A stretch of 64,000 bases of DNA, taken from Paenibacillus sp. FSL H7-0357. Lineage in GTDB: Bacteria; Bacillota; Bacilli; Paenibacillales; Paenibacillaceae. Positions within the stretch are counted from its first letter, which is position 1; every line of letters begins with the position of its first letter. The notes beneath the pieces were generated by a model, which saw only the letters and a list, made by a program, of their open reading frames with translations, did not search any database and had not been told where the DNA came from. The position numbers were made by a program, and so were the translations under genes. This document shows, in pieces, positions 20,213 through 53,092 of the stretch. The stretch is taken from positions 6,758,001 through 6,822,000 of the forward strand of contig NZ_CP009241.1 in NCBI RefSeq assembly GCF_000758525.1. Reading direction: 5' to 3'.

Positions 20213-20255
20213 TCAATAAAATATTTCAAAAAATTTAAGTGCTTATATATTCACT

Positions 20256-23503: not shown

Positions 23504-23656
23504 ATGGAACTAATAATAATACGTGCACTTTTAATAATTCAGGCTCTTACTTGTATATATTTTGCTAAAAAATATACTGATCTTATAAAAAGATTGGAAA
23601 TGGTAAATTTACTTCTACTAATTTCATACTTTTTTTTACTTACCATAATAAGGTAG
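23504..23656 (+). CDS. Small single-TM peptide
   Basis: Fifty-residue product (MELIIIRALLIIQ..., then YTDLIKRLEMVNLLLL) from an ATG downstream of GGGGGAGG (13-base spacing). Mostly hydrophobic with a short positively charged break, so probably a membrane peptide with one or two helices. It is divergent from the four-TM gene, and the arrangement is repeated at 20848. Conservation of the charged core between copies, with changes elsewhere, argues that it is or was a real gene. Function unknown. Confidence 0.55.
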   Translation: MELIIIRALLIIQALTCIYFAKKYTDLIKRLEMVNLLLLISYFFLLTIIR

Positions 23657-23735
23657 TAGTCTAGTTGCAAATACTACGATTATAACTAATCTCCTTAAAG
23701 AGCCTATAAAGTCATAGGTTCTTTTCGTTTTCATA

Positions 23736-25586
23736 TCAAATATTTTTACACTCTAGATGAATCTGTTGTGTAACTGCTTCCGAAAAGCCTGGCCTTAAAC
23801 CAGCTTTACGAACAATTTTCCACTGTAACACCAATTCTTTATCACGGCGAAGTTCCTCTGCTACATACTTAACTCTGCGAATTTGAAACTCTTCAAGTGT
23901 CTCCACAGCCTGATGTATAAATGCAATCGTTAAAGGCACTTTTTCTGGATGTTTTTGTAAAACACCCAGTTCAGCAATTCGTTTACCAATCATACTGACG
24001 GTTATACGCTCAGGCTTTTCCTCAGTTGAAAGCTCCTTTTCGACTACAGTAGTTGCGGCGATAAGCATCTGCTGGTCGCGCGCTTCCCAATTCACCCGAG
24101 TATCTGAATACTTTTGGGGTACCGTTATATCAGGTAACTGTTGATACAACCACTGGTTGTCATGCCGATAGAGCCAGGCAAAATCCTTTGGTGCCATTTC
24201 CCTAAGCTCTTTTCTGGTGGCCAGGGGATGAATTTGTTGCAACTGGAGCCATCGTTTTCTCCGCTTATTTCTCTCACGATCCTCAGGCACCTCTCGTGCA
24301 CAAATAGCTTCTTCTTGAACTCCCCCAGCCAATATTCTCTTGTATTTGATAACCGTACCTCTATCGCAACCAAGTACTGAGGCGATACTCGTAATCGTTT
24401 TACCTTCTGACGACAATTTAAGCAGTTGCTTCTCCCACGTTTTCCCGAAAACTTTGACTTCACCGATTCGGGATCGATCCTCTACCGTCCGATCGGGCCC
24501 ACGGCGGGAATATACAAATCCACAAGGACAAGAAAATGTCCCCATAGGCAGTCCTGTATCATAGTCCCGTGTTATCTTCACTTCACGAATGGTCGCGTGC
24601 CCGACATGACTTGCACCTCGATTTAAGCAAGGCCATGGCCCTTCACCGAAGGGAAGATATTTTATTTCCGTGGTAAAAAATATATCAGGACTCAACCCTA
24701 AAAAATGCATCATTAATAAATGTTGAATCGGATGTGCGGCTCCACGCTGTTTTCGAACCATTTTCAATAACCAATTTTGTTCCTTATAAATCACTTCACA
24801 ATCTAGTGATCTAAGAAAATCTCGGCCATAAAAACCTACAAAAGACCGCATAAACTTTTCATTATGAACCTTTCCTGAAAAACTTGCATAACCTTCCTGC
24901 TGTAAACAAGCGATATATTTTTCTCGGATCACCTCTAGTCCAATAATGGGTGGTTCATTTCTCAATAGCCAATACGCTGCATTGGCTAAAAAACGCTCAT
25001 GTTCCGAGGGATTATCCTGACTAACTTCCTCCCCTGAAGTAATCGCTTGTGATATATCAATAAACTCGTGTTTATTCTCTCGACTCGAAACTTGAAGTGA
25101 ACTAGTAAGAAGCCGCGAATAATGCTTATGACAAATGTGTATCCCAGGAATTTGGTGACTAATGTGCCAATAAGGTTCTCCAAATTGATTACAGTCTTCG
25201 ACTATGCACTCATGGCAATATCGCATATGAGAAAGGAAAGGAATACGACTAGCAAGTACACCAATAGTTGTATGTACATCACCATCCATCTTCATCTTCT
25301 CAATTACCTTTTCAGCACGATCAGGAGGTAAAAAGGGTGCATATAATCGATACAAGGTTAGATTTTGAATCATTCGTTCGGGAGTAAAATGTGTGCCCAC
25401 GGGGAGATTAGAGTGTAGTATAGAAAGCCTTGTTGGTAAATCGTAAACGGCAGATGCCGTTCTGCTTGAAAATGCATCCTGTACGGTTTCTTTACTACCG
25501 ATCATTACATTTCGGCTAACCAAATTGAATCTAGCTAAGACACTGTACAGCAATTCATCAGGATGAGGATTAAACTCAAAGATCAT
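23736..25586 (-). CDS. tnsD: Tn7-like target-selector TnsD/TniQ
   Basis: DNA-binding protein of 616 residues that should choose the insertion site and recruit TnsC. The N-terminal TniQ domain starts with FNPHPDELLYSVLARF; the zinc site near 120-155 is CHECIVEDC followed by ICHKH. A helix-turn-helix-like stretch near 400 (TSIASVLGCDRGTVIKYKR) and a long C-terminal region are characteristic of TnsD rather than the shorter TniQ of CRISPR-linked elements. It follows tnsC by 11 bp in the operon. The target sequence cannot be identified here. A truncated second copy of its C-terminus is at 21097. Confidence 0.92.
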   Translation of the reverse strand: MIFEFNPHPDELLYSVLARFNLVSRNVMIGSKETVQDAFSSRTASAVYDLPTRLSILHSNLPVGTHFTPERMIQNLTLYRLYAPFLPPDRAEKVIEKMKMDGDVHTTIGVLASRIPFLSHMRYCHECIVEDCNQFGEPYWHISHQIPGIHICHKHYSRLLTSSLQVSSRENKHEFIDISQAITSGEEVSQDNPSEHERFLANAAYWLLRNEPPIIGLEVIREKYIACLQQEGYASFSGKVHNEKFMRSFVGFYGRDFLRSLDCEVIYKEQNWLLKMVRKQRGAAHPIQHLLMMHFLGLSPDIFFTTEIKYLPFGEGPWPCLNRGASHVGHATIREVKITRDYDTGLPMGTFSCPCGFVYSRRGPDRTVEDRSRIGEVKVFGKTWEKQLLKLSSEGKTITSIASVLGCDRGTVIKYKRILAGGVQEEAICAREVPEDRERNKRRKRWLQLQQIHPLATRKELREMAPKDFAWLYRHDNQWLYQQLPDITVPQKYSDTRVNWEARDQQMLIAATTVVEKELSTEEKPERITVSMIGKRIAELGVLQKHPEKVPLTIAFIHQAVETLEEFQIRRVKYVAEELRRDKELVLQWKIVRKAGLRPGFSEAVTQQIHLECKNI

Positions 25587-31651: not shown

Positions 31652-33307
31652 TTGCAGTGGAAATTACACGAGGATACACGCTTTTCTACGGGATTAATCC
31701 AGTATTACTCCCGTCAATTCTTACTTCCCACTTATTTAACGAAGATTCTCCTCTCTCGTGGGATTACAAATGAAGACCTATATTATTCCTATGCTTATCC
31801 CAGTTTAGCGGATCTCCATGATCCATTTCTGTTCAAAGAAATGAGAACAGTCGTATATCGAATCTATAGGGCTATTATGAACGGCGAACGGATTAGTATT
31901 TTCGGCGATTATGATGCGGATGGAATGACATCCAGTGCGCTTCTTTATCGTGCGCTGTGCAATTTAAAAGGTAGTGTTTCAGTGATAGTCCCCACCCGCG
32001 CCGAGGGTTATGGGCTCTCAGTAGAAACTATCGAGAAAATCGCAATAGAGAATCCTTCACTAATTATCACAGTAGACAACGGTTCTAATTCGCATGCGGC
32101 TTTAGCCGCTGCGGCAGCCAAGGGAATCGATGTTATTGTAACGGATCATCACGAGATCACGGGTGAACTCCCTAAATGCTATGCTTTTATCAATCCAAAA
32201 CGAAAAGATGACACCTATCCTTGTACCCACCTATGCGGAGTTGGGGTGGCCTTCAAAATTATTCAGGCGCTGTTTGCTGTGCGTAAAGATCTGGATTGGT
32301 ATAAACATGCCTGGGAGTATCTGGAGCTTGTAGCCCTGGGGACGGTCGCCGATTTAATGCCGCTTGTGGGCGAAAACCGTACGCTTGTGAAACTAGGGCT
32401 CTATAAAATGAATAACGATCCTTCAGAACCATTTAAGAAACTATTTCAGCTTCTACGGATTTCAAATATTGATAGCTCCACCCTCTCTTTTCTGATTGCT
32501 CCTATATTCAATTCGGTTGGGCGCATCGGTAATCCTAATTTTGCGGTTAAGCTCTTAGCAGAGAAAATAAGTCATGAAGATGCGATCATTTTTATGATTG
32601 ATCTAAACGAAAAGCGAAAATATCTAACGGATGTCCAATTTAGACAAGTTGATGAGACCATTCAGAGGCTACACCTCCATAGTCAAGATCTGATTGTTGT
32701 AGCCGATAAGCTACATGAAGGCTTGATTGGAATTTTAGCCGCTAAAATTACAGAGAAATATCAAAAGCCCACCATCGTGTTTACGGATCGTGGGAAGGGA
32801 TCTGCACGGTCGGTTTCAAACACGTCGTTTTCTATTGTGGACGCCATTCAAAGTTGTAGCCAATATCTAAAGACCTTTGGCGGGCATCAGGCCGCAGCAG
32901 GGCTTTCGCTAGAGCTCAACCAGCTTCCTTCCTTTACAGCTGCGATTCAAATTGCTGCTCGAAAACAATCCATCATCCAGCCCTCTAAAATGTATCATCA
33001 TGAACTCCCTATCCAGAGATTTGATGATGAACTCTTTGAGCACCATATGATGATGGAGCCGTTTGGCATCGGCAATGAGAAACCCCTTTATTCCAGTTCT
33101 GCAATTCCAAGTCATTATCGAGTGGAGCCTTTCGGCAAAAACCAAGTTCACGCTTCACTTCACTTTCATCGAAAAAAAGCTCTTGCGTTCTACAAAGCTT
33201 CTTCGTTTCCGAATGCCCAAAGTAAAGCAGTCGAATTTTTATATAGTGTAAATTCCTATCCAAGAAAAGATTTTATCGTAAACGATCTCAAGTTTTTTAA
33301 CCATTAA
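31652..33307 (+). CDS. RecJ-like single-strand DNA exonuclease
   Basis: DHH-family phosphoesterase of 551 residues, probably a 5'-3' single-strand DNA exonuclease. Motifs in order: SIFGDYDADGMTSSALLYR (metal-binding Asp, about residue 84-102), TVDNGS, VTDHHEI (the DHH motif), PLVGENRTLV, NSVGRIGNPN and the DHHA1 block FGGHQAAAG. It matches RecJ up to the DHHA1 region and a short OB-like end but is shorter than chromosomal RecJ (about 750-790 in Bacilli), so it is probably a second, mobile copy. Start is TTG eight bases after GGAGG. It lies between Tn7-like genes and a tnsC scrap. Confidence 0.9.
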   Translation: MQWKLHEDTRFSTGLIQYYSRQFLLPTYLTKILLSRGITNEDLYYSYAYPSLADLHDPFLFKEMRTVVYRIYRAIMNGERISIFGDYDADGMTSSALLYRALCNLKGSVSVIVPTRAEGYGLSVETIEKIAIENPSLIITVDNGSNSHAALAAAAAKGIDVIVTDHHEITGELPKCYAFINPKRKDDTYPCTHLCGVGVAFKIIQALFAVRKDLDWYKHAWEYLELVALGTVADLMPLVGENRTLVKLGLYKMNNDPSEPFKKLFQLLRISNIDSSTLSFLIAPIFNSVGRIGNPNFAVKLLAEKISHEDAIIFMIDLNEKRKYLTDVQFRQVDETIQRLHLHSQDLIVVADKLHEGLIGILAAKITEKYQKPTIVFTDRGKGSARSVSNTSFSIVDAIQSCSQYLKTFGGHQAAAGLSLELNQLPSFTAAIQIAARKQSIIQPSKMYHHELPIQRFDDELFEHHMMMEPFGIGNEKPLYSSSAIPSHYRVEPFGKNQVHASLHFHRKKALAFYKASSFPNAQSKAVEFLYSVNSYPRKDFIVNDLKFFNH

Positions 33308-33528: not shown

Positions 33529-34830
33529 TTATAAATAATCATAGTAAAAAGTTTCGCCCATTTCTGAGCATAGTTCCTTAAATTTATTTTTTTGCAATTC
33601 ATTTTCCTGTAAGGTACCTTTTATCGCAGAACCAAATGTTCCGCTGGTATTAACATTATTCAAGACTTTATTGATATGTTTGACAACAACTGAATTTAAT
33701 TCTGCATTTTTAATGTAGAAAGGTAAATTACTTGTTTGATCATACCAAAATTGATAGTTCCATTTATCACTTGAAGCAGCTAGAATATAGCCTTCATATA
33801 TTTCGAAAAATTTGTATTTTTTTAAAATCAATAAACTTTCATCCGATAATTTAGATATGAATAAAAAGATATCTTCGGTAATTAGATTTGTCCAAAAGGA
33901 CTCGATTTCATCCTGTGGAATTTTATTATTTTTAAACAACCATTCTACAATTTCAAAAACTGCACTCGAGTTTCTTGATATTCTGCAAAACCTCGTAAAG
34001 TTATTTTTCCAAAACACTCTTAAAAAGCCATCGTTTCCTGAGAACTTTCTTATAATTGCAGGAGATACAGATATTATGTTCATGAACTCTCTCTGGTTAT
34101 TCTCAAGAAATTGTAATAGTTTTGTTTGTATATTGGGATCTGTATGTTCAGATAAATCAATCCAAAATTGTGTGACTCTGTTGTTTTCATAATGAGATAA
34201 GGGGATTTTTTGAAATAATTTTTTAAACAATTCGTTACTCTGATCGAAGTGAGCAACACTGGGTAACGTATCTACTAAATAAGTGTAGTCATTGCTGTAC
34301 TCAGCACATGTTGGATCAAAATGACGCCTTGCTACTTCAACAAATCCTTCAACTCCACTATCAACTATAAACTTCCCTAAATGGTTTTGTATAAACATCC
34401 ATAGAGCTTCTACTTGAGGATAACTAATTATATCCTTTGCATGAATGCACGCATTACGCTTATTTTTCCAAAAAATTGCTTCGTTTCGTATATCTCTATA
34501 TATTAGAAATGCTTGTTTCGAAGGTTTAGGCTTAACTTTTTTCTTTTCTACGTCATTATCGAAAGCTATTACTTCGTTCACTTCTATATCCCATTTATCT
34601 ATTAATTTAAGATTATCTTGTATTTCTGTCCAAGTTGAATCGGATATACCAGCTGGCTGTTCTGCACGCAGCAATCGATGTTTAACTATTATCTGAAATG
34701 CTAAATAGGACAACATAAAAGCACCACGGTATGCTGAAACTTTAAAACATAAAATAGCCTCTTCCAAAAATTCCTTTGCCTCATCCTCAATGTATTGTGT
34801 CTCTAACCAATTCTCAAAAGCTAATTTCAT
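33529..34830 (-). CDS. HEPN-like domain protein, possible RNase
   Basis: Protein of 433 residues. The N-terminal ~165 residues are helical (AILCFKVSAYRGAFMLSYLA) and end with RNACIHAK, matching the RNxxxH (Rx4-6H) motif of HEPN ribonucleases. The rest is a mixed helical region with no motif I know. HEPN proteins with large unknown domains are common in phage-defence loci, often as abortive-infection RNases. It lies downstream of the Hsp70/beta-CASP operon on the same strand, but a terminator separates them. Start follows AAAGGAG. The HEPN call rests on one motif and predicted helices. Confidence 0.6.
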   Translation of the reverse strand: MKLAFENWLETQYIEDEAKEFLEEAILCFKVSAYRGAFMLSYLAFQIIVKHRLLRAEQPAGISDSTWTEIQDNLKLIDKWDIEVNEVIAFDNDVEKKKVKPKPSKQAFLIYRDIRNEAIFWKNKRNACIHAKDIISYPQVEALWMFIQNHLGKFIVDSGVEGFVEVARRHFDPTCAEYSNDYTYLVDTLPSVAHFDQSNELFKKLFQKIPLSHYENNRVTQFWIDLSEHTDPNIQTKLLQFLENNQREFMNIISVSPAIIRKFSGNDGFLRVFWKNNFTRFCRISRNSSAVFEIVEWLFKNNKIPQDEIESFWTNLITEDIFLFISKLSDESLLILKKYKFFEIYEGYILAASSDKWNYQFWYDQTSNLPFYIKNAELNSVVVKHINKVLNNVNTSGTFGSAIKGTLQENELQKNKFKELCSEMGETFYYDYL

Positions 34831-34973
34831 TTTTATTTATTTCTCCTTTGATTTTTGTAATACACCGCTATCTATTCATATTAATATTCTTTATCTTAAT
34901 TTAAAGTGACATTCGATAGGAAATACCAAACCGTACAAATTAAAAGTGATGTAATTTTTTTAATCACTTCAAC

Positions 34974-35013
34974 AAAAAAAGAAGCACTACGTTTATTACG
35001 TTTTTTGTGCTTC
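34974..35013 (-). terminator. Terminator of the Hsp70/beta-CASP operon
   Basis: Stem GAAGCAC / GTGCTTC extended by A-T pairs, with seven Ts on the minus strand, 70 bp past the last gene of the operon. Confidence 0.8.
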
Positions 35014-35082
35014 TTTAAATACTAATTTATACAATGATTACTTATGGAAATTTAAGACCTTATCTCAACAATAGCTAAATTT

Positions 35083-36468
35083 TTAGGTTGGGGTATTATC
35101 ATAATTAAATTCTTTCGCCAACCATTCAAAATCCAAATTGGTTTCCTCTTCCCCTTGTACTCCTGATTCTGATAAGGTTTTTACTCGAAGCAATTCTTCT
35201 CTTTCGGATAAAAGCAATTCGTAATCCTTATTTAATCTATCTATCTGAGAGAGGGCTTGCTGTAATTCCTGCATTAATTTTAAATTATTACTGTTTTCAA
35301 TATTCATTTTATCCTTAATATCTTCGAGTTCTTGTTGTACTTGACGTAAATCCAGTTGAGAGGACTGAAGTTGTTTGTTTGATTCCTCACGGAATATCGA
35401 TTCCCGTTCAATAAGAAGCGTATTTGTCTCTTTCTCATAATTATTAATTTTGCGGGTAAGAGTGTCATTTTCGGCCTGTAATGTATCACGCTCTTTTCTC
35501 GTCTCGCCTAAAGTTTGCGAAATCTTACCCTGCTCCTTTAACTGATTCTCATAATTCTGATTTAATCGAGTATTACTCATCTGTAATTGATTAATTTCAG
35601 AAGTAAATCCTTTAATTTGTTTATTATTAGATTTTATGAGCTTCTCAAGATCTCTTAATTTTAGGGACTGGTTTTCAATTGTCACTTTTAATTCATTCTG
35701 TTCTTCTAGCAAGTTATCATAGAGATCTTTATACTCCCCATCTGACTCTTTTTCTTTATACATTTCTGATGCATGCTCTAACATTCGAATTGCACTTTCA
35801 ACGATCTCTCTGGGGTCATTTGGTAAGTCTATCTCTTTAGCATCATCAGAAGTATCATGCAAATACTCAAAATTATTACGGCTCAAATCCCCACCTTCTT
35901 TTTTGGGACTGTTATTAACTTGTGATTTGTTTAGCTTTTTATCCTCGACAGATAAAACTTGTTTGGAAATTAATTCTTTATAAATCGATTCAGGATGTTG
36001 ATCAACAAATAATTCAACGAGTAATTGTTTATGCAATCCATTTTTATAAAACCGAAGAATATTAATAGTAGTATGTGTTGGGATTACATTTTTTTCATAA
36101 ATCCCTTTGATATTTCGTACCACTTCATCAATTGTACGATCTGTTTTATTTGCAATAATATCCAAAGTGTTTTCCATGTAACTCAAATATGAATTCACAA
36201 ATTTATTGTATAATTCGTAATAATTGCTTAGGACTTGACTTAACTTTTCACGAAGGAGAACACTATCAACTTTATTACCACTCAGCTCAAGTTTTGAAAT
36301 TTTAATAGCTCTTAACAAAGAAACATTTCCGTAAATGATTTGAGAAATTTCATGATCTGAAAAATGATAGAGCAGAGCAGCATCAAGCAACTCATCTTTT
36401 ATACCATATAGGCCATCCATAGAAATATATGGGTTCTTTTTAACGGAGGACCCTGTTTTTCTTTTCAT
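35083..36468 (-). CDS. Coiled-coil protein, fifth gene of the Hsp70/beta-CASP operon
   Basis: Unrecognised protein of 461 residues. The first ~170 residues are globular and helical (YGIKDELLDAALLYHFSDHE, then TTINILRFYKNGLHKQLLVE). After an acidic linker, residues about 240-440 form one long coiled coil rich in Gln, Glu and Leu. No membrane segment or catalytic motif. Such proteins usually act as dimeric scaffolds or adaptors. It begins 1 bp after the HEAT gene ends and is followed by a terminator, so it closes the operon. Confidence 0.7.
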   Translation of the reverse strand: MKRKTGSSVKKNPYISMDGLYGIKDELLDAALLYHFSDHEISQIIYGNVSLLRAIKISKLELSGNKVDSVLLREKLSQVLSNYYELYNKFVNSYLSYMENTLDIIANKTDRTIDEVVRNIKGIYEKNVIPTHTTINILRFYKNGLHKQLLVELFVDQHPESIYKELISKQVLSVEDKKLNKSQVNNSPKKEGGDLSRNNFEYLHDTSDDAKEIDLPNDPREIVESAIRMLEHASEMYKEKESDGEYKDLYDNLLEEQNELKVTIENQSLKLRDLEKLIKSNNKQIKGFTSEINQLQMSNTRLNQNYENQLKEQGKISQTLGETRKERDTLQAENDTLTRKINNYEKETNTLLIERESIFREESNKQLQSSQLDLRQVQQELEDIKDKMNIENSNNLKLMQELQQALSQIDRLNKDYELLLSEREELLRVKTLSESGVQGEEETNLDFEWLAKEFNYDNTPT

Positions 36469-36469
36469 A

Positions 36470-38182
36470 TTATTCCCTCGTCTCTCGATTGATTGTTATT
36501 CTTCCTTGTTCTTTCTTCATTGAGCTAATAATATGATCTATTTCTCGGACGACTCGAACATCACTTTCAGTTCTTTTTGCATCATAAAGTACTTCTTGGG
36601 GGAGCAACTCTTTTTTCTTATTCACATGTTTACCAATCAACTTATAAATCTCTATTCGAAGCGCTGGCAGCTTTGCATAATCCAATCTTTTTATTATGAT
36701 TGGCCCTATATCCGAATTTAGTACATTGGCTTGTAGTAATCCACAAATAATAAACAGAGATTTCTCATCTGATAAAGTTAATAAACTCTCCGCTAACTTT
36801 TTGTGTTGGTAAGGTTGTAATTTTGCAACATGTCTCTGTAATGTACGCTTTTCAAACTCACTACCTTCAACTAACAAACTGACATACTTTAAAAAGGACT
36901 CCTCATTCCCAAGTGAAACCATACAATTAAGAGCCTCTAAATAAAGCATGGAATTTTTGTTATTTAAGTAAGGTTTTATTTGCTCTTGGACATTTTGATT
37001 GCGGTTACCTATAAATCCGATAGTCAATAAACACTCTTGCTTTACCTTAAGGTCATTGGAGGTTTTCAACTCCGATAACACATATGAAAGAACACCTTCG
37101 CTTCTTGTATAACTCAAACCACGAATAATAGCACGCTTCTTATCTGGAAATTCTTCAAGTGCCTGAACCAATACATTTGTTGAATGAGTCATTCTTAGTG
37201 AGCCTAGTGTCTGACAAATAGGAATCAGTAAGTTATCGTCGTCTGTCTCATTTAACACTTTTTTTAGCATCGGTATAGCATCTTCCTGAAATGAACGAAG
37301 TGCGGTTGTATAAATCGGTCCCAAAGGATATTTTTCATTTTTAATGTAAAGTTCAAAGATAACTTTTACAGCACTTGTTCCAAATTCTGAAAATCTATAA
37401 GCATTTTTTATCGCATGTTCAATTAAATCAGTCCGCCTTAAATCGAGGTTATTAATTTCATTGAAAATATCTGGAATAGACTCTTTCTTCGCTATATTTA
37501 ACAAGGCATCTAAGCTTCCCTTGAAATATTCTGGATCTGACATGCGTTTTAGCAATCCACTAACAGACTCTTGATCTCTAATGGAACCAGCAACCAAAAT
37601 TGCGAAATTAATATGTTGACGTATAGTGGCTTTTTCTAAAATCGCTTTAATAATACGTCTACCCTTCAAACTTCTGTTCGTCAATCGATTAAGCAATTGA
37701 ATGATAAGTGATTTGATTTTATCATCAGATAGGTCAAACTTACGACATTCTCTGAATAGAATAATGATTGACCTCTCTCCAAAGGATTCTATGATTCTTA
37801 CAGATTCTTTCCATAATTCTCCGTTAGTCTGATATGCAATATTTTCAATTGCTTGCAAAATAGTCTGATATTCAGACTCAGTAATGTTTTCATCAAGGCT
37901 TTCAAATGAAATATCTACGTAACCTAGATTACCGTAATACTCAACTTCAACAACACCTTTATTCTCATTTAAAGAACTTGGCCCTGTCATAAAATCTAAA
38001 AATTCCGCTTCGTTTTCTTGCTCTTCTATTTCAATTTGTTTTAAAATCTCTTCCTTTAATTCCTCCTCTTCCTTATCGCTCAATACATTTTTTTCCCTAT
38101 ATTCCTCTGATGGTGAGATCTCCTTTTTCAAGCTATTCAGTTTATCTAGCACTTCATCAGACATCCGATCAAATAGTGACAT
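36470..38182 (-). CDS. HEAT-repeat protein, fourth gene of the operon
   Basis: Protein of 570 residues. After a ~60-residue acidic N-terminal tail (many Glu/Lys), residues about 110-550 form successive helix pairs with HEAT/ARM character (AIPMLKKVLNETDDDNLLIP, CQTLGSLRMTHSTNVLVQAL, KVKQECLLTIGFIGNRNQNV). It should be a curved solenoid that binds protein or nucleic acid. Its start overlaps the Hsp70-like gene by 14 bp, so the two are translationally coupled and probably made in fixed proportion. It may be the partner that brings clients to the ATPase; that part is inference. Confidence 0.75.
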   Translation of the reverse strand: MSLFDRMSDEVLDKLNSLKKEISPSEEYREKNVLSDKEEEELKEEILKQIEIEEQENEAEFLDFMTGPSSLNENKGVVEVEYYGNLGYVDISFESLDENITESEYQTILQAIENIAYQTNGELWKESVRIIESFGERSIIILFRECRKFDLSDDKIKSLIIQLLNRLTNRSLKGRRIIKAILEKATIRQHINFAILVAGSIRDQESVSGLLKRMSDPEYFKGSLDALLNIAKKESIPDIFNEINNLDLRRTDLIEHAIKNAYRFSEFGTSAVKVIFELYIKNEKYPLGPIYTTALRSFQEDAIPMLKKVLNETDDDNLLIPICQTLGSLRMTHSTNVLVQALEEFPDKKRAIIRGLSYTRSEGVLSYVLSELKTSNDLKVKQECLLTIGFIGNRNQNVQEQIKPYLNNKNSMLYLEALNCMVSLGNEESFLKYVSLLVEGSEFEKRTLQRHVAKLQPYQHKKLAESLLTLSDEKSLFIICGLLQANVLNSDIGPIIIKRLDYAKLPALRIEIYKLIGKHVNKKKELLPQEVLYDAKRTESDVRVVREIDHIISSMKKEQGRITINRETRE

Positions 38183-39971
38183 CTGGTCTCATCTCCCTTT
38201 GTCGAATGTTTTTATTTAACGTTGCCTGACGTTCTTGGAGTTCTCTAATTTCTTCTTCCGTAAACTCATGTGATCCAATATTCACGTCGATCACTTCCGT
38301 TTCATCATTTTCAAGCCAAGCCTTTACAGCAACTTCTCTTTCAGTGTTGCAACTTACTTTTAACACTAATTTCGAGTTTATTTCTACAGGTTTTTTAAAT
38401 TCGATTATGGCAGATTTCAATTTTTTAACATGTATAGATTTAGCAAAGGGAGCTGAGAAAAGTTCCAGTTGCATTCCGTTCACCGTTTTTATATCTCTCG
38501 GACCATTAACAATAAACTTATCTTGAATGATGCGCTCAAAGGGTAATTTGGTTCCTTTTTCAAGAATAGCAACTGGATCACCCCCGACGATATCAACATA
38601 GATATTATTAGGAACTGTATTTCCAATAACATTTTGTCTGTCTTTATTATCCGATACATATTCTTTATTTCCTTTTAAGGAAATCTCATTAATCCGATAA
38701 TGATAAACAGCAGCTCCCCTACTAACTGAAGTCATTGGGTTGGATGATTTGAGCGGCTTAATTCGGCGATTGAAAATGTCATAGATGCGTTCTTGGATCG
38801 TTTGGTAATAAGTCATTCCACCTACCAAAAATACTGCATCAATATCTTCCAGTTGCATTGGACCCAATATTGTATTTTCAAGAGCGCTACGAATTGGCGT
38901 TTCAATATTTTTGGTTTGATTACCTTCAGCAAACAATAGTTTATTAATTATAGTGTCATAATCCTTTTTGGTTAATTTAAACGTTGTTACAAGCTCTGAA
39001 GGAAGTGTACCTGGAAGTGCTGCTGAGAAAGAAATATTATCGAATTGATCTTTGTTCTCGAAATATTCAATTCCTTCTATCCTTAGTTTTGACTCAATGC
39101 TGGTACTAAACTTCATTTTTGCCTTTTCAGCAATATCAGTTAGGTTGGATAACAACTGTATTACCACATCTCTTCCGAACTTTTGAGCAATAGCTTTCGC
39201 CGAAAGTCCTGATTCCTTAACAACTCTACGTAATAATTCATTCATAATTTCTGTATCAAAGTCCATTCCCCCAAGATCAGTATATTGAGAAATTGAAATT
39301 TCCTGTATATCTAGCTTTCCACCTTCTTGTCCAGAAACTTGTAATATAGATACATCACACGTTCCGCCTCCCAAATCAAAGACCATTAAGTTCTTCTTAC
39401 CTGATGAAAAATCAATTCTCCTGTCAGTCGGATCTAGCTTTTCTTCTTCATTTAAGAAATCGATTAAGGCAGCCGTTGGCTCAGGGATCATATGAATCCC
39501 CTCCTCACTGAATCCGCTTAATATAGCAGCTGTCTTGGTGGCATTTTGTTGTTGAAAGTCAAAGTTTGCAGGGATTGTAATTACCACGCTGTCGATTTCT
39601 TCATTTGGATAAAAGTCTTTCACTTGTGCTCTTAAGGATGAAAGAACATATGAAGAAACCTCTTCTGGTCGTATTCTGATATCATTAATTATCCACCCTT
39701 TATCCTGTCCGATAACACGTTTGGCTTCTTTTACAACAGAAGACGGAAAAACCCCACTCATTTTTTTTGCGAACTTTCCAACATACGGTATATTTTGAGG
39801 ATCTACATAAAGAACAGAGGGCAACAGAATATTTTGAATTAAAGAATCCCCCCGTTCATCTGTTTGTGTCACTTCTAAAGTTGTTGTTTCTATTTCACTT
39901 CTAATCGTTCTATGAGCTACACTCACGGTTGAATTAGTAGTTCCTAAATCAATTCCTACAAATCTTGACAT
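38169..39971 (-). CDS. Hsp70/DnaK-like ATPase, third gene of the operon
   Basis: Hsp70-family protein of 600 residues. The actin-like ATPase domain (about 1-430) is complete: phosphate-1 loop VGIDLGTTNSTVSVAH, AVITIPANF-type stretch (VVITIPANF), EPTAALIDF, phosphate-2 loop MVFDLGGGTCDVSIL and the adenosine motif AVFLVGGMTYYQTIQERI. A shortened beta-type substrate domain (about 450-560) follows; the long helical lid of DnaK is missing, replaced by a short charged helix. So it binds and hydrolyses ATP but probably works on dedicated partners rather than as a general chaperone. It starts 2 bp after the previous gene. Confidence 0.92.
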   Translation of the reverse strand: MSRFVGIDLGTTNSTVSVAHRTIRSEIETTTLEVTQTDERGDSLIQNILLPSVLYVDPQNIPYVGKFAKKMSGVFPSSVVKEAKRVIGQDKGWIINDIRIRPEEVSSYVLSSLRAQVKDFYPNEEIDSVVITIPANFDFQQQNATKTAAILSGFSEEGIHMIPEPTAALIDFLNEEEKLDPTDRRIDFSSGKKNLMVFDLGGGTCDVSILQVSGQEGGKLDIQEISISQYTDLGGMDFDTEIMNELLRRVVKESGLSAKAIAQKFGRDVVIQLLSNLTDIAEKAKMKFSTSIESKLRIEGIEYFENKDQFDNISFSAALPGTLPSELVTTFKLTKKDYDTIINKLLFAEGNQTKNIETPIRSALENTILGPMQLEDIDAVFLVGGMTYYQTIQERIYDIFNRRIKPLKSSNPMTSVSRGAAVYHYRINEISLKGNKEYVSDNKDRQNVIGNTVPNNIYVDIVGGDPVAILEKGTKLPFERIIQDKFIVNGPRDIKTVNGMQLELFSAPFAKSIHVKKLKSAIIEFKKPVEINSKLVLKVSCNTEREVAVKAWLENDETEVIDVNIGSHEFTEEEIRELQERQATLNKNIRQREMRPDVTI

Positions 39972-39973
39972 AT

Positions 39974-41401
39974 TTAATTTTCCTCTCCATCTTTAAATTT
40001 CATCTCAGTGACTAACGGGGGGATTATTATTCGATTATTCAACATCCACCCATATTTCAAAAGTTTAACTTTAATTTCGTCGGAGTCAGATGAAATGGGC
40101 CCGTTTGTTTCATAATTTTTAATTAATTCAGCACGAGTTACAATAAATATCTCGTTTATTTCTTTGAAGTTACTAAATTCTTCAAGTCCAATCGTTAAAT
40201 TCAAATTTGAAAAAAGATTCACTAATCTCCCTGTACTAATATTGGGATTATTCGGCTTGATGCCTTGACTTTCCTCGAATAAATCAGAAAGCAAATAGTC
40301 CCCTCTGCTACCGCCTAAAGCTTTCAATAGATTGCTGAGTACTTTTTCTTCAGTTTGACGTACACGTTCTTTTTCTTGCTCTAAAGCCATATTCAGACGT
40401 TTAAGTTCATCTTCCGCTATTTCCAATTTATTGCTATACTCTTCTTCAAGAACTGTGAGTAATAGATTACCGCCAGATTTCATTTTTTCCATAGCACGAT
40501 GAATGGAACTTAAAGCTTGATTTAAATCTTTTTCTACGGTTTCTTGTTCAGACGTAGCTCCCATAAGATCTATGGTTTCGTCAGAATTGCCTATCAAAGT
40601 TTGGCTATAAGGCAATGAATCAGTAATTCCCTTATCTATTTTCAGATTTTTTGCCGTTTGAGTGATTCCCTGTTCAGAATATCCGTGCAAATTGTCTATA
40701 AAGACCTTCATCAATTCTGAGGGTTTGCAATGTTTCGAAGATTCCAAAATTATTTTTTCCAGTCCTTCTGCAAAGCATAAACCATCAACATTAATTATTT
40801 TTTTATACGCTGCCATTCTACCATTTTTTCCTTTTTTCAATCTAAAACCAGCACCTAGTAAGTATTGTTGCGCTGGTTTAGTTTCTTCCACCGTATAATG
40901 CCAAGAAATGACTTCATCCACTAAAGAAAGAATTTGAATGTCATTTTCTCCTTCTAAGAAACATACGAAATAACGAATTAGGAGTTCAGTTAAAATTCTC
41001 TGATCAGGGATAAATAACTTACTTCCCTCTAAATCACCCTGGCAAATATAGATGAATGCCTTTCTAGCATGATTATATTTTAATTTGGTTAGTGACAAAA
41101 AGTTTGCACATAAATCCATCGTTAATTTTTGAGGTTCATCTAATTTATTCCACTCAGTTTTAATGAGAGAAATTAGTGTATCTTCATTTTCAATTTGTGG
41201 ATTCTCAAAGATTGTTTTTTCACAAAGGATTTGTAGCTTCCAATAAAGGTTATTGCGTTTATCAAAACTGTATAATGAAACTTTCCTTAATAAACTTTCT
41301 GTTTCTTCTCCAAACTCTTGAGCTAACAGTTCGAGAATCTTTTCGCTTCCCTTGCCATAATTTTTCAGGGAGAAATCTATTACTCGTTCTATCGTATTCA
41401 T
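39974..41401 (-). CDS. Coiled-coil protein, possible GrpE-like partner, second gene of the operon
   Basis: Protein of 475 residues with no named domain visible. The N-terminal ~270 residues are helical. Residues about 290-350 form a coiled coil (LKRLNMALEQEKERVRQTEE), followed by a short globular end with IKVKLLKYGWMLNNRIIIPP. A coiled coil plus small C-terminal domain beside an Hsp70 recalls nucleotide-exchange factors such as GrpE, but similarity is at the level of layout only. The start follows AGGAGG, 11 bp after the nuclease gene. Confidence 0.6.
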   Translation of the reverse strand: MNTIERVIDFSLKNYGKGSEKILELLAQEFGEETESLLRKVSLYSFDKRNNLYWKLQILCEKTIFENPQIENEDTLISLIKTEWNKLDEPQKLTMDLCANFLSLTKLKYNHARKAFIYICQGDLEGSKLFIPDQRILTELLIRYFVCFLEGENDIQILSLVDEVISWHYTVEETKPAQQYLLGAGFRLKKGKNGRMAAYKKIINVDGLCFAEGLEKIILESSKHCKPSELMKVFIDNLHGYSEQGITQTAKNLKIDKGITDSLPYSQTLIGNSDETIDLMGATSEQETVEKDLNQALSSIHRAMEKMKSGGNLLLTVLEEEYSNKLEIAEDELKRLNMALEQEKERVRQTEEKVLSNLLKALGGSRGDYLLSDLFEESQGIKPNNPNISTGRLVNLFSNLNLTIGLEEFSNFKEINEIFIVTRAELIKNYETNGPISSDSDEIKVKLLKYGWMLNNRIIIPPLVTEMKFKDGEEN

Positions 41402-41412
41402 AACTCCTCCTA

Positions 41413-43878
41413 TTACTTGCCTGTTATAAGTGAATAAGTTTTACCATTGAAGGCAGGAACAATTGACATATCGTTTCCTAAGTAGGCTAATAAATTAATC
41501 AAAGTGGGATAGATGATATTACCATCTACAATAGTCTGGTTTGGGAAGTAAGATCTTTGATGTTCTCCGTGCATTAGAAATACCTGTTTAGGGCTGATAT
41601 CCATGATTAATTTAAGAATTTGCTCTCGACTTGCATGAGCTGATAATCGAAATGTTTCTGTACTAGCCTTAAGCTGTTTTGTTACACCATTAATTTTTAC
41701 CGTTTGATCCTCTATACGATTATCAGCCTGTAAAAGATGACTGCCAGGGCTTTCTTCATCCATATATCCTGTAAAGGAAATGGTGTTTTGGGGTTCTTCA
41801 ATCATCTTCTCCGCATACCTTGCAGAGGCACTTTGATCCATCAGCATTCCTGAGCTTGCAACGATACAACTCCCACCTGTGGATAAATAGTCCTCATAAA
41901 ATTCATCAAAACTAGAACTAAGCTTTTGATTGGCATAAATATCTTTCGCACAAATAACTTCTTCTCCAAAAAGAGTTTTATCATTCTTTTCTTCATCAAA
42001 AATATCTTGATATACTTTACATACATCAATAACTCTTCCATCAATGAAGAGATTAAATGGCAAAAAGCGTTCCTTTTGGAATGCATCCCGAATTATCATT
42101 AATATCTCTTGCGCTCTACCTACGGCAAATGCTGGGATCAAAATATTTCCTTTGTTATTAATTGTTTTTCTAATGGATTCTGTAAACATCGTCTCTTGAA
42201 GATCCCTTGAAATGCTAGCATTCGTTGGTAGAAACCCGTATGTTGATTCAGTAATTAATATATCTACTTTTAAGTCTCTGGGAAGTTTTAAACCTTCAAC
42301 AGTTTTTTGATTATCAATTGAATAATCCCCCGTAAAGAGAATCGAGACTCCATCGATTTCTAAATGAATCGAACTGGCCCCCAAAATATGTCCTGAGTGG
42401 TAATAAGTAACTTTCCATTCTGTATTTTGCGATGGAATAGTGAAGGTCTTCCCTTGTTCAATTGTTCTTATGCTAAGAATTGCTCCTCGAACGTCATCCT
42501 CAGAGTAACCATCAGGATGCTTCTTATTCCCTTTCACAGCGTCCAATAACAAAATCCTCATTAATCTGCGAGTTGCCTCAGTAGTGTAAATCGGCAGCTG
42601 GTTATATTGGTTATAGATATAAGGTACAGAACCTGTATGATCTAAATGAGCGTGGGTGAGAAGTAGCGCATCTAGTTTTTCAAACGTAACTCCTTGTTCA
42701 AACATTGGAGTATAATCAGCATGGTAGTTTTCTTCATGTAAATGCATGCCTGCATCTAATAATAGGAAGTGTCCGTTGACGTTGATTAGTATAGATGTGC
42801 CCCCAATTTTCTCTCCTCCACCTAGAAATGTGATTTTACAATCCCCGAGAGGTGGCGTCTCCTTATTTGACTCTATTTTTTTTGATGTTCTCCAATAGGC
42901 AGAAATCACTTCTCGTTTATCTGAATGTTTTACATATAAATCTTCTAAGTGTTTGTGTAATAGTTCTGTATGTTTATCTTCTAAATAATTCACATATAAA
43001 ATGCCTAATGTTAAATCATTTGGATACGCCAAATAATCAGCCTCAATATGTTCAAGCCACTTTTTATCTTTTCTCAATCTCCATATGATATGTAGAGAGC
43101 CTTTTCGTTTTACCTCTAACGAAAAATCCTCAAAATGGCCAAACTCAATGCTAGAAGCAATAGTAGTATTTAATGAATTCTGTAATAAATCCTTATAAAA
43201 GATGGCAAGTACTTTCACTTCTCCAAATATTGGACCACTTATCTCGTACCAGTCATTTCGACTTACTAGATTTACAATTTCATCAAGTATAATTGCCCAG
43301 TATGTTATCTGCTGGATTTTACCCACTTCGATATTTCGCAAGTAAATTAGCTTTCTCAAATGAAACCTGGCTTGATTGAAGTTTCTAAAATGATATTCTA
43401 GCTCGATTAACAAAACTAAATAATCAATATATGGTTCTAAAAATCCAGTATTATTTCTAAATTCACTATCTACGTTACCCGCTAATCCCAATAGTAAATA
43501 ATATGCTTTTTCATATTGGGCTAATGAAAAGTACATCTCTGACATTTGAATAATTTCCATCGGGAAATGCTCAATACCTGGTTGATTAAGCAACCATTCG
43601 AGGTCTTCAGTAGACTGTCCCCCATATTTCCAGTAGGAGAAAAACAACGGAAGAAATAAACGTAACTCTCCCGATTGCCTAATGCCTATTTTTGCAAGGA
43701 GGTATGCATCCTGATATTTTTGAATGGACGCATAGAACTTGCATAACCTCTCAGTCATTTCTAAGTCCAAGTTGTCCATTTTTTCATATAGTCGATCATA
43801 ATATTTTTTAGCTTCGGACGGGTATCCACGATTTTCATAGAAAATAGCATTTTCAAAATTCTCTTCTAATGTGTTCAT
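41413..43878 (-). CDS. TPR-fused beta-CASP metallo-beta-lactamase nuclease, first gene of the operon
   Basis: Predicted RNase of 821 residues. The first ~330 residues are TPR-like helix pairs (YEKAYYLLLGLAG, FNQARFHLRKLIY). Then a metallo-beta-lactamase/beta-CASP nuclease of the CPSF-73/RNase J class: GGGEKIGGTS, the zinc motif LLTHAHLDHTG (near 410), SGHILGAS, FTGDYS, and beta-CASP motifs TESTYG, SAHAS and LMHGE. All metal ligands are present, so it should be active on RNA or DNA. I use the ATG after AGAGGGA rather than the one eight codons earlier. A TPR fusion at the front is unusual. Confidence 0.88.
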   Translation of the reverse strand: MNTLEENFENAIFYENRGYPSEAKKYYDRLYEKMDNLDLEMTERLCKFYASIQKYQDAYLLAKIGIRQSGELRLFLPLFFSYWKYGGQSTEDLEWLLNQPGIEHFPMEIIQMSEMYFSLAQYEKAYYLLLGLAGNVDSEFRNNTGFLEPYIDYLVLLIELEYHFRNFNQARFHLRKLIYLRNIEVGKIQQITYWAIILDEIVNLVSRNDWYEISGPIFGEVKVLAIFYKDLLQNSLNTTIASSIEFGHFEDFSLEVKRKGSLHIIWRLRKDKKWLEHIEADYLAYPNDLTLGILYVNYLEDKHTELLHKHLEDLYVKHSDKREVISAYWRTSKKIESNKETPPLGDCKITFLGGGEKIGGTSILINVNGHFLLLDAGMHLHEENYHADYTPMFEQGVTFEKLDALLLTHAHLDHTGSVPYIYNQYNQLPIYTTEATRRLMRILLLDAVKGNKKHPDGYSEDDVRGAILSIRTIEQGKTFTIPSQNTEWKVTYYHSGHILGASSIHLEIDGVSILFTGDYSIDNQKTVEGLKLPRDLKVDILITESTYGFLPTNASISRDLQETMFTESIRKTINNKGNILIPAFAVGRAQEILMIIRDAFQKERFLPFNLFIDGRVIDVCKVYQDIFDEEKNDKTLFGEEVICAKDIYANQKLSSSFDEFYEDYLSTGGSCIVASSGMLMDQSASARYAEKMIEEPQNTISFTGYMDEESPGSHLLQADNRIEDQTVKINGVTKQLKASTETFRLSAHASREQILKLIMDISPKQVFLMHGEHQRSYFPNQTIVDGNIIYPTLINLLAYLGNDMSIVPAFNGKTYSLITGK

Positions 43879-48646: not shown

Positions 48647-49561
48647 TTAGCGATATTCCGAACCGCCACCCCATATTTGGCGCCCACCTGTATGGGCAGA
48701 TTTCATATGTTTTTCTTCCTCTACTGATTCCATATGACCTGGTTCCTCAGCATGATGCCAAACGAATCCTTCGGGTGTTTCTCCATTCTGAATTTGCGTA
48801 ATCTGCTCGGAATTAAAGTTAGCTGCTAATTCAGAATTAGTCACAATTTCATTAGCTAATTGATCATTTAGGTAAGAAAATTGCACATCATCGGTTTGCA
48901 AATACAAACTCTCAGGAAGATCATAGTCATATACCTCATTAAAATCAGGAAAAACTCCTTTTGCCCATTGTCCATCAGGCAATTGTATTGTTTTCACTTC
49001 ATATGGCACACCTGTTACTGGATGCTCCATACCTGCTAAATCCGAGTTAATGGTGTCTAATACCTCAACTTCAGATAAGTTATTTGTGGGTTCAGCCAAA
49101 CCCGTGGCATCGGCAACGCCATCTGCTCCATCTAAAATATCGAAGACCCCGATAGCAAGAACACCAACCGCCGCAGCCATTCCAATTTTTTTTGCTCCAC
49201 TTTTAACTTGATCCACATTTCTATTTTTAATACCAACTATCACATTCTTACCGTTTTCATAAACGTAGCCCACGCCATGACCGACATCTTTTGCTGTACT
49301 TAAGGCAGCATCTCCAAGCTCGAAGAACCCTTGCTTAACTTTATAATCATCCTTCTGGTAGAGTCCTACACCAACATCTACAGTTCCGCTTGCAATTATA
49401 CCAAGAACAACCCCCGTTTTCGCAGTAGCACGTTCAGCCCCATATCCGATTTCTTTAATCGTTTGGCTGTTTGTTACCTCTCCTACTACCCTTACCGTTC
49501 CACCAATTGCTTTCCCAGTTACTTTTCCTGCGACCAACCCTAAATCTTTTAAAAATCTCAT
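48647..49561 (-). CDS. Putative toxin with C-terminal WHH-like HNH nuclease
   Basis: Protein of 304 residues. The first ~150 are Gly/Val/Ala-rich with weakly hydrophobic helices (GKVTGKAIGGTVRVVGEV), possibly a membrane-interacting or delivery region. The end contains the signature of WHH/HNH-type nucleases: GEVPW-like context FVWHHAEEPGHMESV, then KHMKSAHTGGRQIWGG, with histidines placed to bind metal and activate water. This matches nuclease domains of polymorphic toxins. An immunity gene would be expected next to it; the 207-residue gene upstream on the same strand does not look typical. Start follows AAGGAG. Confidence 0.65.
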   Translation of the reverse strand: MRFLKDLGLVAGKVTGKAIGGTVRVVGEVTNSQTIKEIGYGAERATAKTGVVLGIIASGTVDVGVGLYQKDDYKVKQGFFELGDAALSTAKDVGHGVGYVYENGKNVIVGIKNRNVDQVKSGAKKIGMAAAVGVLAIGVFDILDGADGVADATGLAEPTNNLSEVEVLDTINSDLAGMEHPVTGVPYEVKTIQLPDGQWAKGVFPDFNEVYDYDLPESLYLQTDDVQFSYLNDQLANEIVTNSELAANFNSEQITQIQNGETPEGFVWHHAEEPGHMESVEEEKHMKSAHTGGRQIWGGGSEYR

Positions 49562-50842: not shown

Positions 50843-53092
50843 ATGAATGATTTTGATTTAAAGGGGTTTAGAGAAAAACTGGGTTACACACAGGCAGAGC
50901 TTGCTTCAGTCCTACAATGTGGGCAAGATTACATTTCCAGGATGGAAAAGAACCCAGGAAACATGTCACTCGAATTCTTTATGAATCTATGTAGCGTGGC
51001 TCGTATGCTACCAAATGACGTTTTAAGCAACTTTAAGTTGGAACAGCCCAAAGCTCTTGATATCCCTAATGTATATGGTGAAGAAGCACTAAAGAAGGAA
51101 GCCTTGAGATATTACATAGCTCCGAAAATGAGAGACTACATTGAAAAGCCCGAGTATCGCTCAGCAATAAATAAAATCAATGAACTGGATGAATTAATTA
51201 ATATTTATGGAGCCAAACCTCTTGTCGCATTACTTGGTCCATCCGATGCTGGAAAAAGTACTATGATTAATAGTCTTACAGGTATCGATGCTTTGCTATC
51301 TCAATGGACACCAACAACCTCATCAACTGTCTATATCAAACATATAAATGACAAACCCTCATGGATGGGGAAAAATAATGTGAGTATTTTCAAAGCAGAA
51401 ACACATGATAAGGGTTGGAACTTTAGGAAAATTCACGATATGAACTATTGTAAAGCACATATTCTACATATTGGTGACTATGACATCTTAGAAAAGTATT
51501 GTAATAGAAACTCTGAAAATTCCCATAGAGAAGTTGACTCTGCTGTCGTATATTTAGATTCAAACATCTTATTATCTTGTGACATCGTCGATCTTCCAGG
51601 ATTTGGTACAGAGGAGATGGATGATACAGTAAGAGCACAAAGAGCTAAGGATGAAGCAGATATCGTATTGTTTTTATGTCAGAGTAACAGTTTCCTAAAT
51701 AAGCAATCTGATATTTTGTTCTTAAAAGACGTAATCCGTACGTTACCTGTTATTAATACGAAAGAAATTCCGTTGCTTTCAAATCTATTTGTTATTGCTT
51801 CTCAAGCCCACGTAGTGGGTCCTGAAAAAATTCCACATGTATTAGAAACTAGATCTTTGGCATTTTCCGAGCAACTTTCGGATGAATTAATTAATCAAAT
51901 TTTCAATATTAGCAAAAAGAACTTTGTTGAGATATTCAAACGGAGATTCTTCTCTTACTCCCTTGATAATCCAGTTCTCCGTGAAAAATTTGAAAATGCA
52001 TTTAGGGAACTTCTTGTAAATTTATTGCCTACTATTAGAAAGGCAAAATTAAATAAAGCTATTGATGATTTCAAAATAGAATCTCGAACTATATTTTCAA
52101 ACGAAGTAAAAAAATATGAGGCGATATTGCAAGACCGTGAGAATTCAAGAAAAGAATATGAGAAGGCTGTTCAGGATAAGCCAAAAAAGTTCGGGGAAAT
52201 AAACGTTCTTCGAAATCAACTCATAACCTTTATTGATAAGTCTCATAAAAGTAATACACTAGAAATTAAGCTTTGGGAAAAGGAGAACATTACGGAACGT
52301 TATATCGTGGATTTAATTAATGAGAAGAAATACGATAAAAAACAAGCTAAGGAATATCTTCTTTCCAATATCTCAGATCTTTATTATGCAAAAATGCAAG
52401 AAATACTCAAAGGTAGCGTTTCAGAGTTTAACAACATGTTAACTCAATTTTTTGAAGAGGTTGAGAAAAAGGCAAATTCCTTGAGCAAGATATCTGTCGG
52501 TGAGGTTCAAATACCATTTGATTTTAAAGGTGCGCTTGCTGGTGGTATTGCTGGGGCTACTGTACTCGGAGGCTTAGGATTATGGGCAGCTACTGTTGGT
52601 AACCTGGGCGGTTATATTCTTGTTGCTAAAGGCGTTAGCTTACTAAGTGCTTTAGGAATTTCAGTAGGTGGGACTGCGGCGGCAGCTTCCTTCGTAGCAT
52701 TAATTGGTGGTCCAGTAACCATTGGTATTGCATTAGCATTAGGGGTGTTTGCGATAGCTACTTCTCTATTTGGCGATGGCTGGAAAAAACGACTTGCTAA
52801 AGAAGTAGTGAAAACGCTAGAAAAGAAAAAGGTTATCAACTCCTATTCAGACGCGATCGCTAAGTTTTGGAATGACAGTAAGATCGGATTAGGTGAAGTT
52901 GTTGAAGAAATTCTTCGTAAAATTGATGAACACTTGGAGAACTTAAAAACAATAATTGAAACTAATGATCCGAAAACTATCGAAGATATGATTGCATTGA
53001 ACAAAGGGTTAGAGGATTTTTTCGGACAACTCCCCTGGGAAGGAAGTGAATCAACCGTTTTATTAATTGAAAACAACACGGGGAAGTATTAA
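50843..53092 (+). CDS. HTH-fused dynamin-like GTPase
   Basis: Protein of 749 residues. Residues 5-60 are a Cro/C1-type helix-turn-helix (FREKLGYTQAELASVLQCGQ). Then a dynamin-family GTPase: G1 LGPSDAGKST (131-140), switch region TPTTSST, G3 VDLPGFG (249-255), followed by long helices with coiled-coil character. Residues about 575-660 are Gly/Ala-rich and hydrophobic, probably the membrane-binding part, and a helical tail follows. Bacterial dynamins act on membranes, and some protect against phage. Fusion to a DNA-binding domain is rare and might let the protein sense or regulate. It lies between BREX and the AAA+ locus on the opposite strand. Start follows AAAGGTGA. Confidence 0.8.
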   Translation: MNDFDLKGFREKLGYTQAELASVLQCGQDYISRMEKNPGNMSLEFFMNLCSVARMLPNDVLSNFKLEQPKALDIPNVYGEEALKKEALRYYIAPKMRDYIEKPEYRSAINKINELDELINIYGAKPLVALLGPSDAGKSTMINSLTGIDALLSQWTPTTSSTVYIKHINDKPSWMGKNNVSIFKAETHDKGWNFRKIHDMNYCKAHILHIGDYDILEKYCNRNSENSHREVDSAVVYLDSNILLSCDIVDLPGFGTEEMDDTVRAQRAKDEADIVLFLCQSNSFLNKQSDILFLKDVIRTLPVINTKEIPLLSNLFVIASQAHVVGPEKIPHVLETRSLAFSEQLSDELINQIFNISKKNFVEIFKRRFFSYSLDNPVLREKFENAFRELLVNLLPTIRKAKLNKAIDDFKIESRTIFSNEVKKYEAILQDRENSRKEYEKAVQDKPKKFGEINVLRNQLITFIDKSHKSNTLEIKLWEKENITERYIVDLINEKKYDKKQAKEYLLSNISDLYYAKMQEILKGSVSEFNNMLTQFFEEVEKKANSLSKISVGEVQIPFDFKGALAGGIAGATVLGGLGLWAATVGNLGGYILVAKGVSLLSALGISVGGTAAAASFVALIGGPVTIGIALALGVFAIATSLFGDGWKKRLAKEVVKTLEKKKVINSYSDAIAKFWNDSKIGLGEVVEEILRKIDEHLENLKTIIETNDPKTIEDMIALNKGLEDFFGQLPWEGSESTVLLIENNTGKY

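Follow-up and report, generated by a model that had tools for sequence, protein, structure and literature searches.

What does an operon that joins a nuclease gene to chaperone-like genes do when it lies between BREX and Tn7-like genes, and does it represent an undescribed defence system, as an initial annotation made from the letters of the DNA proposed? The five-gene operon concerned spans positions 35083-43878 of a 64,000 nt stretch of Paenibacillus sp. FSL H7-0357 (contig NZ_CP009241.1, positions 6,758,001 to 6,822,000), here called the window. The reading proposed, to which a probability of roughly 0.5 is given, is that of a horizontally moving defence cassette whose effector would be a CPSF73-class RNA endonuclease, gated by the cassette's own Hsp70/GrpE-type ATP switch.

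The tightly spaced, same-strand genes of the initial annotation were confirmed as five open reading frames (ORFs) on the minus strand, with intergenic gaps, from gene 1 to gene 5, of 11, 2, -14 and 1 nt. The features are as follows.

41413..43878, minus strand: gene 1, TPR-like N-terminus and MBL/beta-CASP nuclease, assigned by sequence to the CPSF73/INTS11/Cas14 class (ORF open from 43902, 829 codons)
41503..42870, minus strand: catalytic MBL/beta-CASP/RMMBL part of gene 1 with all ligands present (residues about 345-800 of the 829-codon ORF)
39974..41401, minus strand: gene 2, N-terminal helical domain (1-243), disordered linker and GrpE-fold C-terminal half, as predicted (475 codons)
39974..40540, minus strand: GrpE-fold half of gene 2, with a long helix, two helices and a beta domain (residues 288-475, predicted structure)
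38169..39971, minus strand: gene 3, Hsp70 with intact ATPase site and beta subdomain of the substrate-binding domain (SBD-beta), without lid (600 codons)
36470..38182, minus strand: gene 4, HEAT-repeat protein (570 codons)
35083..36468, minus strand: gene 5, coiled-coil protein with a helical-looking N-terminal part (461 codons)
34971..35016 (limits approximate), minus strand: terminator hairpin and T run 3′ of gene 5, by folding

The start of gene 1 is probably at 43878 rather than at 43902, the first open ATG, because AGAGGG precedes the former. The terminator expected after the operon was recovered by folding as a 10-bp hairpin with a T run (-13.5 kcal/mol, z -2.75; 2 of 200 shuffles equally stable); it is absent from the list of a consensus terminator scanner. 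A terminator-like hairpin on the same strand at 44202-44173, between the upstream side of the operon and an AAA ATPase gene, carries little weight because the number of sites in the scan is about that found in shuffled sequences. The HEAT solenoid proposed for gene 4 is supported by a HEAT_2 match above the Pfam cut-off, and several relatives of the gene 5 protein display an acidic FDNKP tail.

The gene set recurs as a unit. Eleven further loci were reached with the nuclease (four genome contigs, two plasmids and five other genomes), and represent Bacillus, Exiguobacterium, Brevibacillus, five other Bacilli and the two plasmids. The nuclease, GrpE-fold, Hsp70 and HEAT genes are found in identical order in all 11 loci read. 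Gene 5 is recognisable in nine of these; in L092 it is placed by its position, and none was recognised in L086, where the nuclease N-terminus is missing or separate; in L085 the Hsp70 gene and the coiled-coil gene are each in two pieces. Among the window and the nine loci that have all five proteins, pairwise distances of the five correlate at r 0.89-0.99 (45 pairs).

Linkage was also found in the reverse direction. An Hsp70 from a genome named Clostridium putrefaciens, 35% identical to that of the window, led to 10 of 398 genomes of the phylum, the window's own included. The other nine all belong to other classes of the phylum; in each of them a nuclease gene of the family adjoins the Hsp70 gene (9/9), and the two genes thus stay together in the re-ordered versions outside Bacilli. 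A protein in the HEAT position is common to all nine loci, with a HEAT profile match in six only. Loci L136-L138 have a related gene in the GrpE position and the nuclease last; two of these genes match the gene 2 profile (E about 1e-11) and the third clusters with them. The remaining six loci, from one family (f81), carry the nuclease, Hsp70 and HEAT genes, a 316-329-residue coiled-coil-like gene and a 498-501-residue gene. The possibility, raised in the initial annotation, that the genes are rarely found together is thus not borne out. Among the 80 genome-contig loci listed, four have the set, and more members may exist beyond the list; 76 have another beta-CASP protein of 27-35% identity. 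The nuclease is the only gene of the set detected at these 76 loci, many of which are short, except for an Hsp70 match 7 kb away in L037. As a supporting observation only, 19 of 27 gene 2 matches apparently share a genome with a nuclease or Hsp70 match.

The MBL, beta-CASP and RMMBL domains of the gene 1 protein all score above Pfam cut-offs. Ten motif positions (D383, H417, H419, D421, H422, H505, D526, E552, H756 and H778) are identical in the eight nuclease proteins compared, four of which are from outside Bacilli. The beta-CASP nuclease with all metal ligands therefore stands as first described; the TPR fusion stands less well, the N-terminal 340 residues being TPR-like at best (TPR_14, E 0.095). 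The solved structures nearest to the family profile are INTS11, CPSF73, aCPSF1 (archaeal CPSF/FttA) and Cas14; RNase J ranks much lower, and the nuclease is assigned by sequence to the CPSF73/INTS11/Cas14 class and predicted to cut RNA. This class includes housekeeping nucleases of RNA 3′-end formation and termination (aCPSF1/FttA, CPSF73, INTS11). Membership in the named families was rejected: RNase J (TIGR00649) at 66 bits against a cut-off of 400 and by the PDB ranking, which prefers the CPSF73 class, Cas14 (NF045584) at 196 bits against 800, and aCPSF1 (TIGR03675) at 248 bits against 580. In the nuclease tree the 12 proteins from Bacilli and plasmids form one clade (92 in the Shimodaira-Hasegawa-like approximate likelihood ratio test, SH-aLRT). 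A single origin of all Hsp70-linked nucleases is compatible with the tree, at a weak support of 62 and with long branches. Separately, many Bacillota, Chloroflexota and cyanobacterial genomes (L009-L068) encode a different large beta-CASP protein, which in most cases has a long C-terminal extension; the other genes of the cassette were not detected beside it.

The gene 3 protein has an Hsp70 match in Pfam of 145 bits. The family profile aligns with the nucleotide-binding domain (NBD) and SBD-beta of DnaK from residue 1 to ~578 and ends near DnaK residue 491-526; the protein itself ends about 20 residues after the alignment stops. Since the alignment ends ahead of the lid, the cassette Hsp70 is without one, as the initial annotation had it. 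No residue of the phosphate and nucleotide sites varies among the 10 Bacilli proteins compared, those of the window and of nine loci, and L086 agrees with them. Four Hsp70 proteins from outside Bacilli keep these residues, apart from a Q in place of K69 in L135 and an R in place of K285 in L134 and L135. Judged from these residues, the cassette Hsp70 should still cycle ATP. The host genome has, at 5.88 Mb, a DnaK-like gene (33% identity to the cassette Hsp70) that adjoins a GrpE gene, with the cassette at 6.8 Mb.

Gene 2 was said to have a layout that recalls GrpE, and this is borne out by the predicted fold and not by sequence profiles. The protein matches no family in Pfam (up to E 0.1) or NCBIfam, and the GrpE profile PF01025 gave E 0.16 by hhalign, with the other four cassette proteins, as controls, at 0.18, 0.27, 0.38 and 0.39. 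The AlphaFold2 model (29 sequences; predicted local distance difference test, pLDDT, 76) shows a helical N-terminal domain joined by a disordered linker to a helix of 76 residues, followed by two further helices and a small beta domain. In a Foldseek comparison of the whole model with 350,542 PDB chains, GrpE occupies ranks 1-5 (E 0.013-0.084) and an unrelated chain comes next at 0.10. When the C-terminal half was modelled alone (31 sequences, pLDDT 81, predicted template modelling score 0.52), GrpE chains took ranks 1-11 (E 4e-4 to 1.6e-2), and the best unrelated chain scored 0.38. The C-terminal half of gene 2 thus has, in the predicted structure, a GrpE fold, and as the profile test is negative the assignment is one at the level of fold. 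Gene 2 is probably the exchange factor for the cassette Hsp70; the cassette would therefore carry its own Hsp70 and a probable exchange factor.

Copies are sparse and patchy in Bacilli. Among 60 relatives the cassette is found in the window's own genome only. It is present in 2 of 344 genomes of the family, the window's own included, and in 3 of 397 of another order of Bacilli; smaller family samples (2/17 and 2/36) repeat three copies from the other counts and add one. Gene 2, a fast-evolving query with which distant copies are missed, was found among 398 genomes of the phylum in the window's own only. The nuclease of the second copy in the window's family is 36% identical to that of the window and is less alike than the Exiguobacterium copy (50%), which suggests, from sequence comparison, that the cassette has moved by transfer. 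It is also present on two plasmids. The copy on the Klebsiella plasmid lies in a stretch of 33% GC and shares 86% identity with two Bacillus copies; it represents either a recent transfer from Bacillota or a contaminated record. A plasmid search with the Hsp70 of the other subgroup gave no match.

Neighbouring genes were read at 15 loci, i.e., the window, the 11 loci reached with the nuclease, and L136-L138. Pfam covered 32 of the 122 flanking ORFs of the 11 loci, large ORFs being preferred, and eight neighbours of L136-L138; PADLOC was run on a selection. In the window, the BREX and Tn7-like genes noticed earlier were verified as PglX/PglZ/BrxL on one side of the operon and TnsA/B/C/D on the other. 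Recognised defence or restriction genes are found at these loci.

Window: BREX, from 9.5 kb off
L006: PDC-S68 and an OLD-like ATPase
L007: PDC-S02/Mrr
L008: NERD-UvrD
L086: Mrr and GmrSD-HNH
L092: pPIWI-RE
L136: BrxD-like genes directly upstream
L138: Cas8b

Neighbours at three more loci are arguable: a ResIII-type helicase (L085), a dynamin pair (L095) and an AAA protein (L137). The BrxD/SngB-like ATPase ORFs of L136 (1409-3580) are two in number and lie directly upstream of the re-ordered cassette, on the same strand. Other genes were observed around the cassettes. Between the Tn7-like genes and the window's cassette are a RecJ-like DHH exonuclease (31652-33307, plus strand) and a 433-residue protein of no family (33529-34830, minus strand; AbiV only at E 0.077). 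Within 20246-25586 of the window, two 300-bp stretches, at 20246 and 21099, occur again at 22892 and 23738 (79% and 87%), with the latter lying in the TnsD gene; the arrangement suggests that a second TnsD-like copy has left a remnant here. A gene for a helix-turn-helix and dynamin-like GTPase with LeoBC/LeoA similarity (50843-53092, plus strand) lies between the cassette and BREX, and the dynamin-like pair of L095 is likewise near a cassette. A Colicin-DNase/WHH nuclease gene is found at 48647-49561 (minus strand); relatives of it (E about 1e-50) come directly after gene 5 in L093 and L097, two closely related genomes. In L005 (19395-21407) and L006 (19094-21106), the first gene listed downstream of the cassette encodes a 670-residue protein with double-stranded RNA-binding and RNase III-like domains, 65% identical between the two genomes.

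The five-gene set matches no named system, in agreement with the initial annotation, and is set apart from the nearest ones by feature tests and by their descriptions. PADLOC gave weak matches only on the cassette proteins; the single-protein matches to JetC, HEAT-ARM, PDC-M61B and RTasMBL were set aside, as they appear to reflect coiled coils, repeats or superfamily resemblance. No cassette protein scores above cut-off in NCBIfam (June 2026). Searches of the open-licence PubMed Central (PMC) literature found neither a description of this gene set nor a nuclease effector tied to an Hsp70 and an exchange factor.

A chaperone pair in a conflict operon has a precedent, since about 14% of GAP1-N2 GTPase neighbourhoods contain HSP70 together with GrpE; these are predicted conflict operons, found chiefly in Actinobacteria and Firmicutes (Kaur et al. 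2020, PMC7159879). The cassette likewise has an HSP70 gene beside a GrpE gene, the former identified by profile and the latter by fold only. GAP1-N2 systems differ in that they are centred on the GTPase, with FNIII-DnaJ or TPR proteins; Pfam gave no match to a GAP1-N2 GTPase in the operon or in the ten flanking genes that were scanned, and the available text of Kaur et al. contains 0 occurrences of "lactamase". Type VII CRISPR-Cas also has a beta-CASP effector, Cas14, an RNA endonuclease which is among the nearer solved relatives of the cassette nuclease (PMC10910872). However that system is guided by RNA, with Cas7/Cas5 and CRISPR RNA, and Cas14 has a C-terminal adaptor whereas the cassette nuclease has an N-terminal extension (PMC10910872). 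No Cas genes were found in the operon or ten flanking genes, and the repeats listed for 20000-64000 include no regular array. The housekeeping DnaK-GrpE operon shares the Hsp70 ATPase and SBD-beta and the GrpE fold; the cassette differs from it in having no lid, no DnaJ and a helical domain fused to the GrpE-fold half, and the genome's own pair is elsewhere. The aCPSF1/FttA, CPSF73 and INTS11 nucleases share the catalytic class and motif set of the cassette nuclease, but are not known to have Hsp70/GrpE partners.

Three features constrain the mechanism: an intact CPSF73-class metal site, an Hsp70 that should cycle ATP, and a matching exchange-factor fold. We think that the Hsp70 is an ATP-timed sensor or switch of the nuclease assembly, because a chaperone that only binds RNA, as is proposed for CnuD of the CoCoNuT systems, would need neither an intact ATPase nor an exchange-factor fold. 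The idea of the initial annotation that the Hsp70 controls or loads the nuclease is still an inference. In the scheme proposed, the Hsp70 and its GrpE-fold partner would cycle ATP on an assembly joined by HEAT, TPR-like and coiled-coil parts, and an Hsp70 with SBD-beta only would bind with fast exchange. The nuclease would be held inactive in the resting state. Infection, through phage proteins or chaperone takeover, would shift Hsp70 occupancy; the change may free or re-order the nuclease, which would then cut RNA and stop the infection. In its full form, an Hsp70 dedicated to the cassette, cycling ATP with a GrpE-type exchange factor of its own, would sense infection and switch on a CPSF73-class RNA endonuclease on HEAT/TPR/coiled-coil scaffolds, without guide RNA, GTPase or second messenger. 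This would be a new kind of bacterial immune machine, and it is put forward tentatively, as possible rather than probable.

The defence part of the reading, at about even odds, rests on mobility and neighbours, i.e., on the sparse distribution, the plasmid copies and, as context, the defence genes nearby. Several observations weigh against it. The count of recognised defence or restriction genes, 8 of 15 loci, has no control rate and favoured large ORFs, and is thus context and not a statistic, with no enrichment implied; at L005, L093, L094 and L097 none was found among the 2-3 neighbours scanned each. Viral contigs searched with the nuclease contain no relative; phage records match the nuclease core only, at up to 28% identity and 53% coverage. 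A J-domain was not found by Pfam in the five cassette proteins. In family f81, of the same phylum and another class, 17 of 20 genomes have the Hsp70 (two of them with a broken frame), and nearly the whole 20 kb is syntenic in all six loci read. In the one f81 locus scanned, the seven outside neighbours are oxidoreductases, a sigma-54 regulator, Dak1, Dak2, Lit and an FtsH-like gene, with no defence gene among them. Pfam sees the MBL part alone in the f81 nuclease, yet the ten motif positions align. This pattern resembles a fixed function, and could reflect either a domesticated defence locus or an original role in RNA metabolism. The defence candidate of the initial annotation thus keeps its support from distribution, plasmids and neighbours, and loses some to the fixed locus.

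The f81 locus also speaks for a machine of RNA processing or of RNA and protein quality control without a role in defence. Here the Hsp70 and exchange factor would place the endonuclease on ribosomes or misfolding nascent chains, the faulty transcript would be cut, and Bacilli would exchange the cassette as an accessory stress module. The intact ATPase and the GrpE fold suit true chaperone cycling, and the nuclease class has its housekeeping members. However the cassette is rare and patchy in Bacilli, is carried by plasmids and has recognised defence genes nearby at 8 of 15 loci, and the cell already owns DnaK-like and GrpE genes. This explanation is judged rather unlikely.

RNA restriction of the CoCoNuT type is improbable; the Hsp70 would here make direct contact with foreign or aberrant RNA, and the beta-CASP nuclease would stand in for the HEPN/McrC nucleases. 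The Type III systems are candidate RNA-targeting defence operons, and their CnuD joins an Hsp70 NBD/SBD, HEAT-like repeats and coiled coils, with a proposed role in RNA targeting (PMC11090510). They differ in having McrB/McrC and helicases, and the ATPase motifs of CnuD are reported as degenerate, its hydrolysis being doubted (PMC11090510). The cassette has a beta-CASP nuclease, keeps the ATP-site residues and has an exchange-factor fold in addition, and Pfam detected neither the McrB GTPase (NxD motif) nor McrC/DUF2357 in the five proteins or the ten flanking genes scanned.

As the cell also has a housekeeping pair, the cassette's own Hsp70/GrpE-type pair might be a decoy that mimics the host DnaK/GrpE exploited by phages, so that tampering with it would fire the nuclease. 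Chaperone-dependent phage sensing is known for bNACHT25, whose defence needs DnaJ and DnaJ-DnaK coupling (PMC12169576). But an Hsp70 only 33% identical to the cell's DnaK-like protein, and without a lid, would be a poor copy, and the decoy is held to be very improbable. A chance neighbourhood of unrelated genes in a defence island, suggested by the position between BREX and Tn7-like genes, is refuted for practical purposes by the conserved order of genes 1-4, the congruent distances and the reciprocal linkage.

Hsp70/GrpE pairs in predicted conflict operons and DnaJ/DnaK in phage sensing have already been noticed. If the locus is indeed a mobile, chaperone-gated defence cassette, the occupancy of a chaperone would directly set off immunity by RNA cutting. 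Regulation of the nuclease by a chaperone would be of wider interest because the nuclease appears, from its class, to be a bacterial cousin of the eukaryotic INTS11/CPSF73. Even if the cassette is a housekeeping machine, it would represent an unnamed RNA-processing complex.

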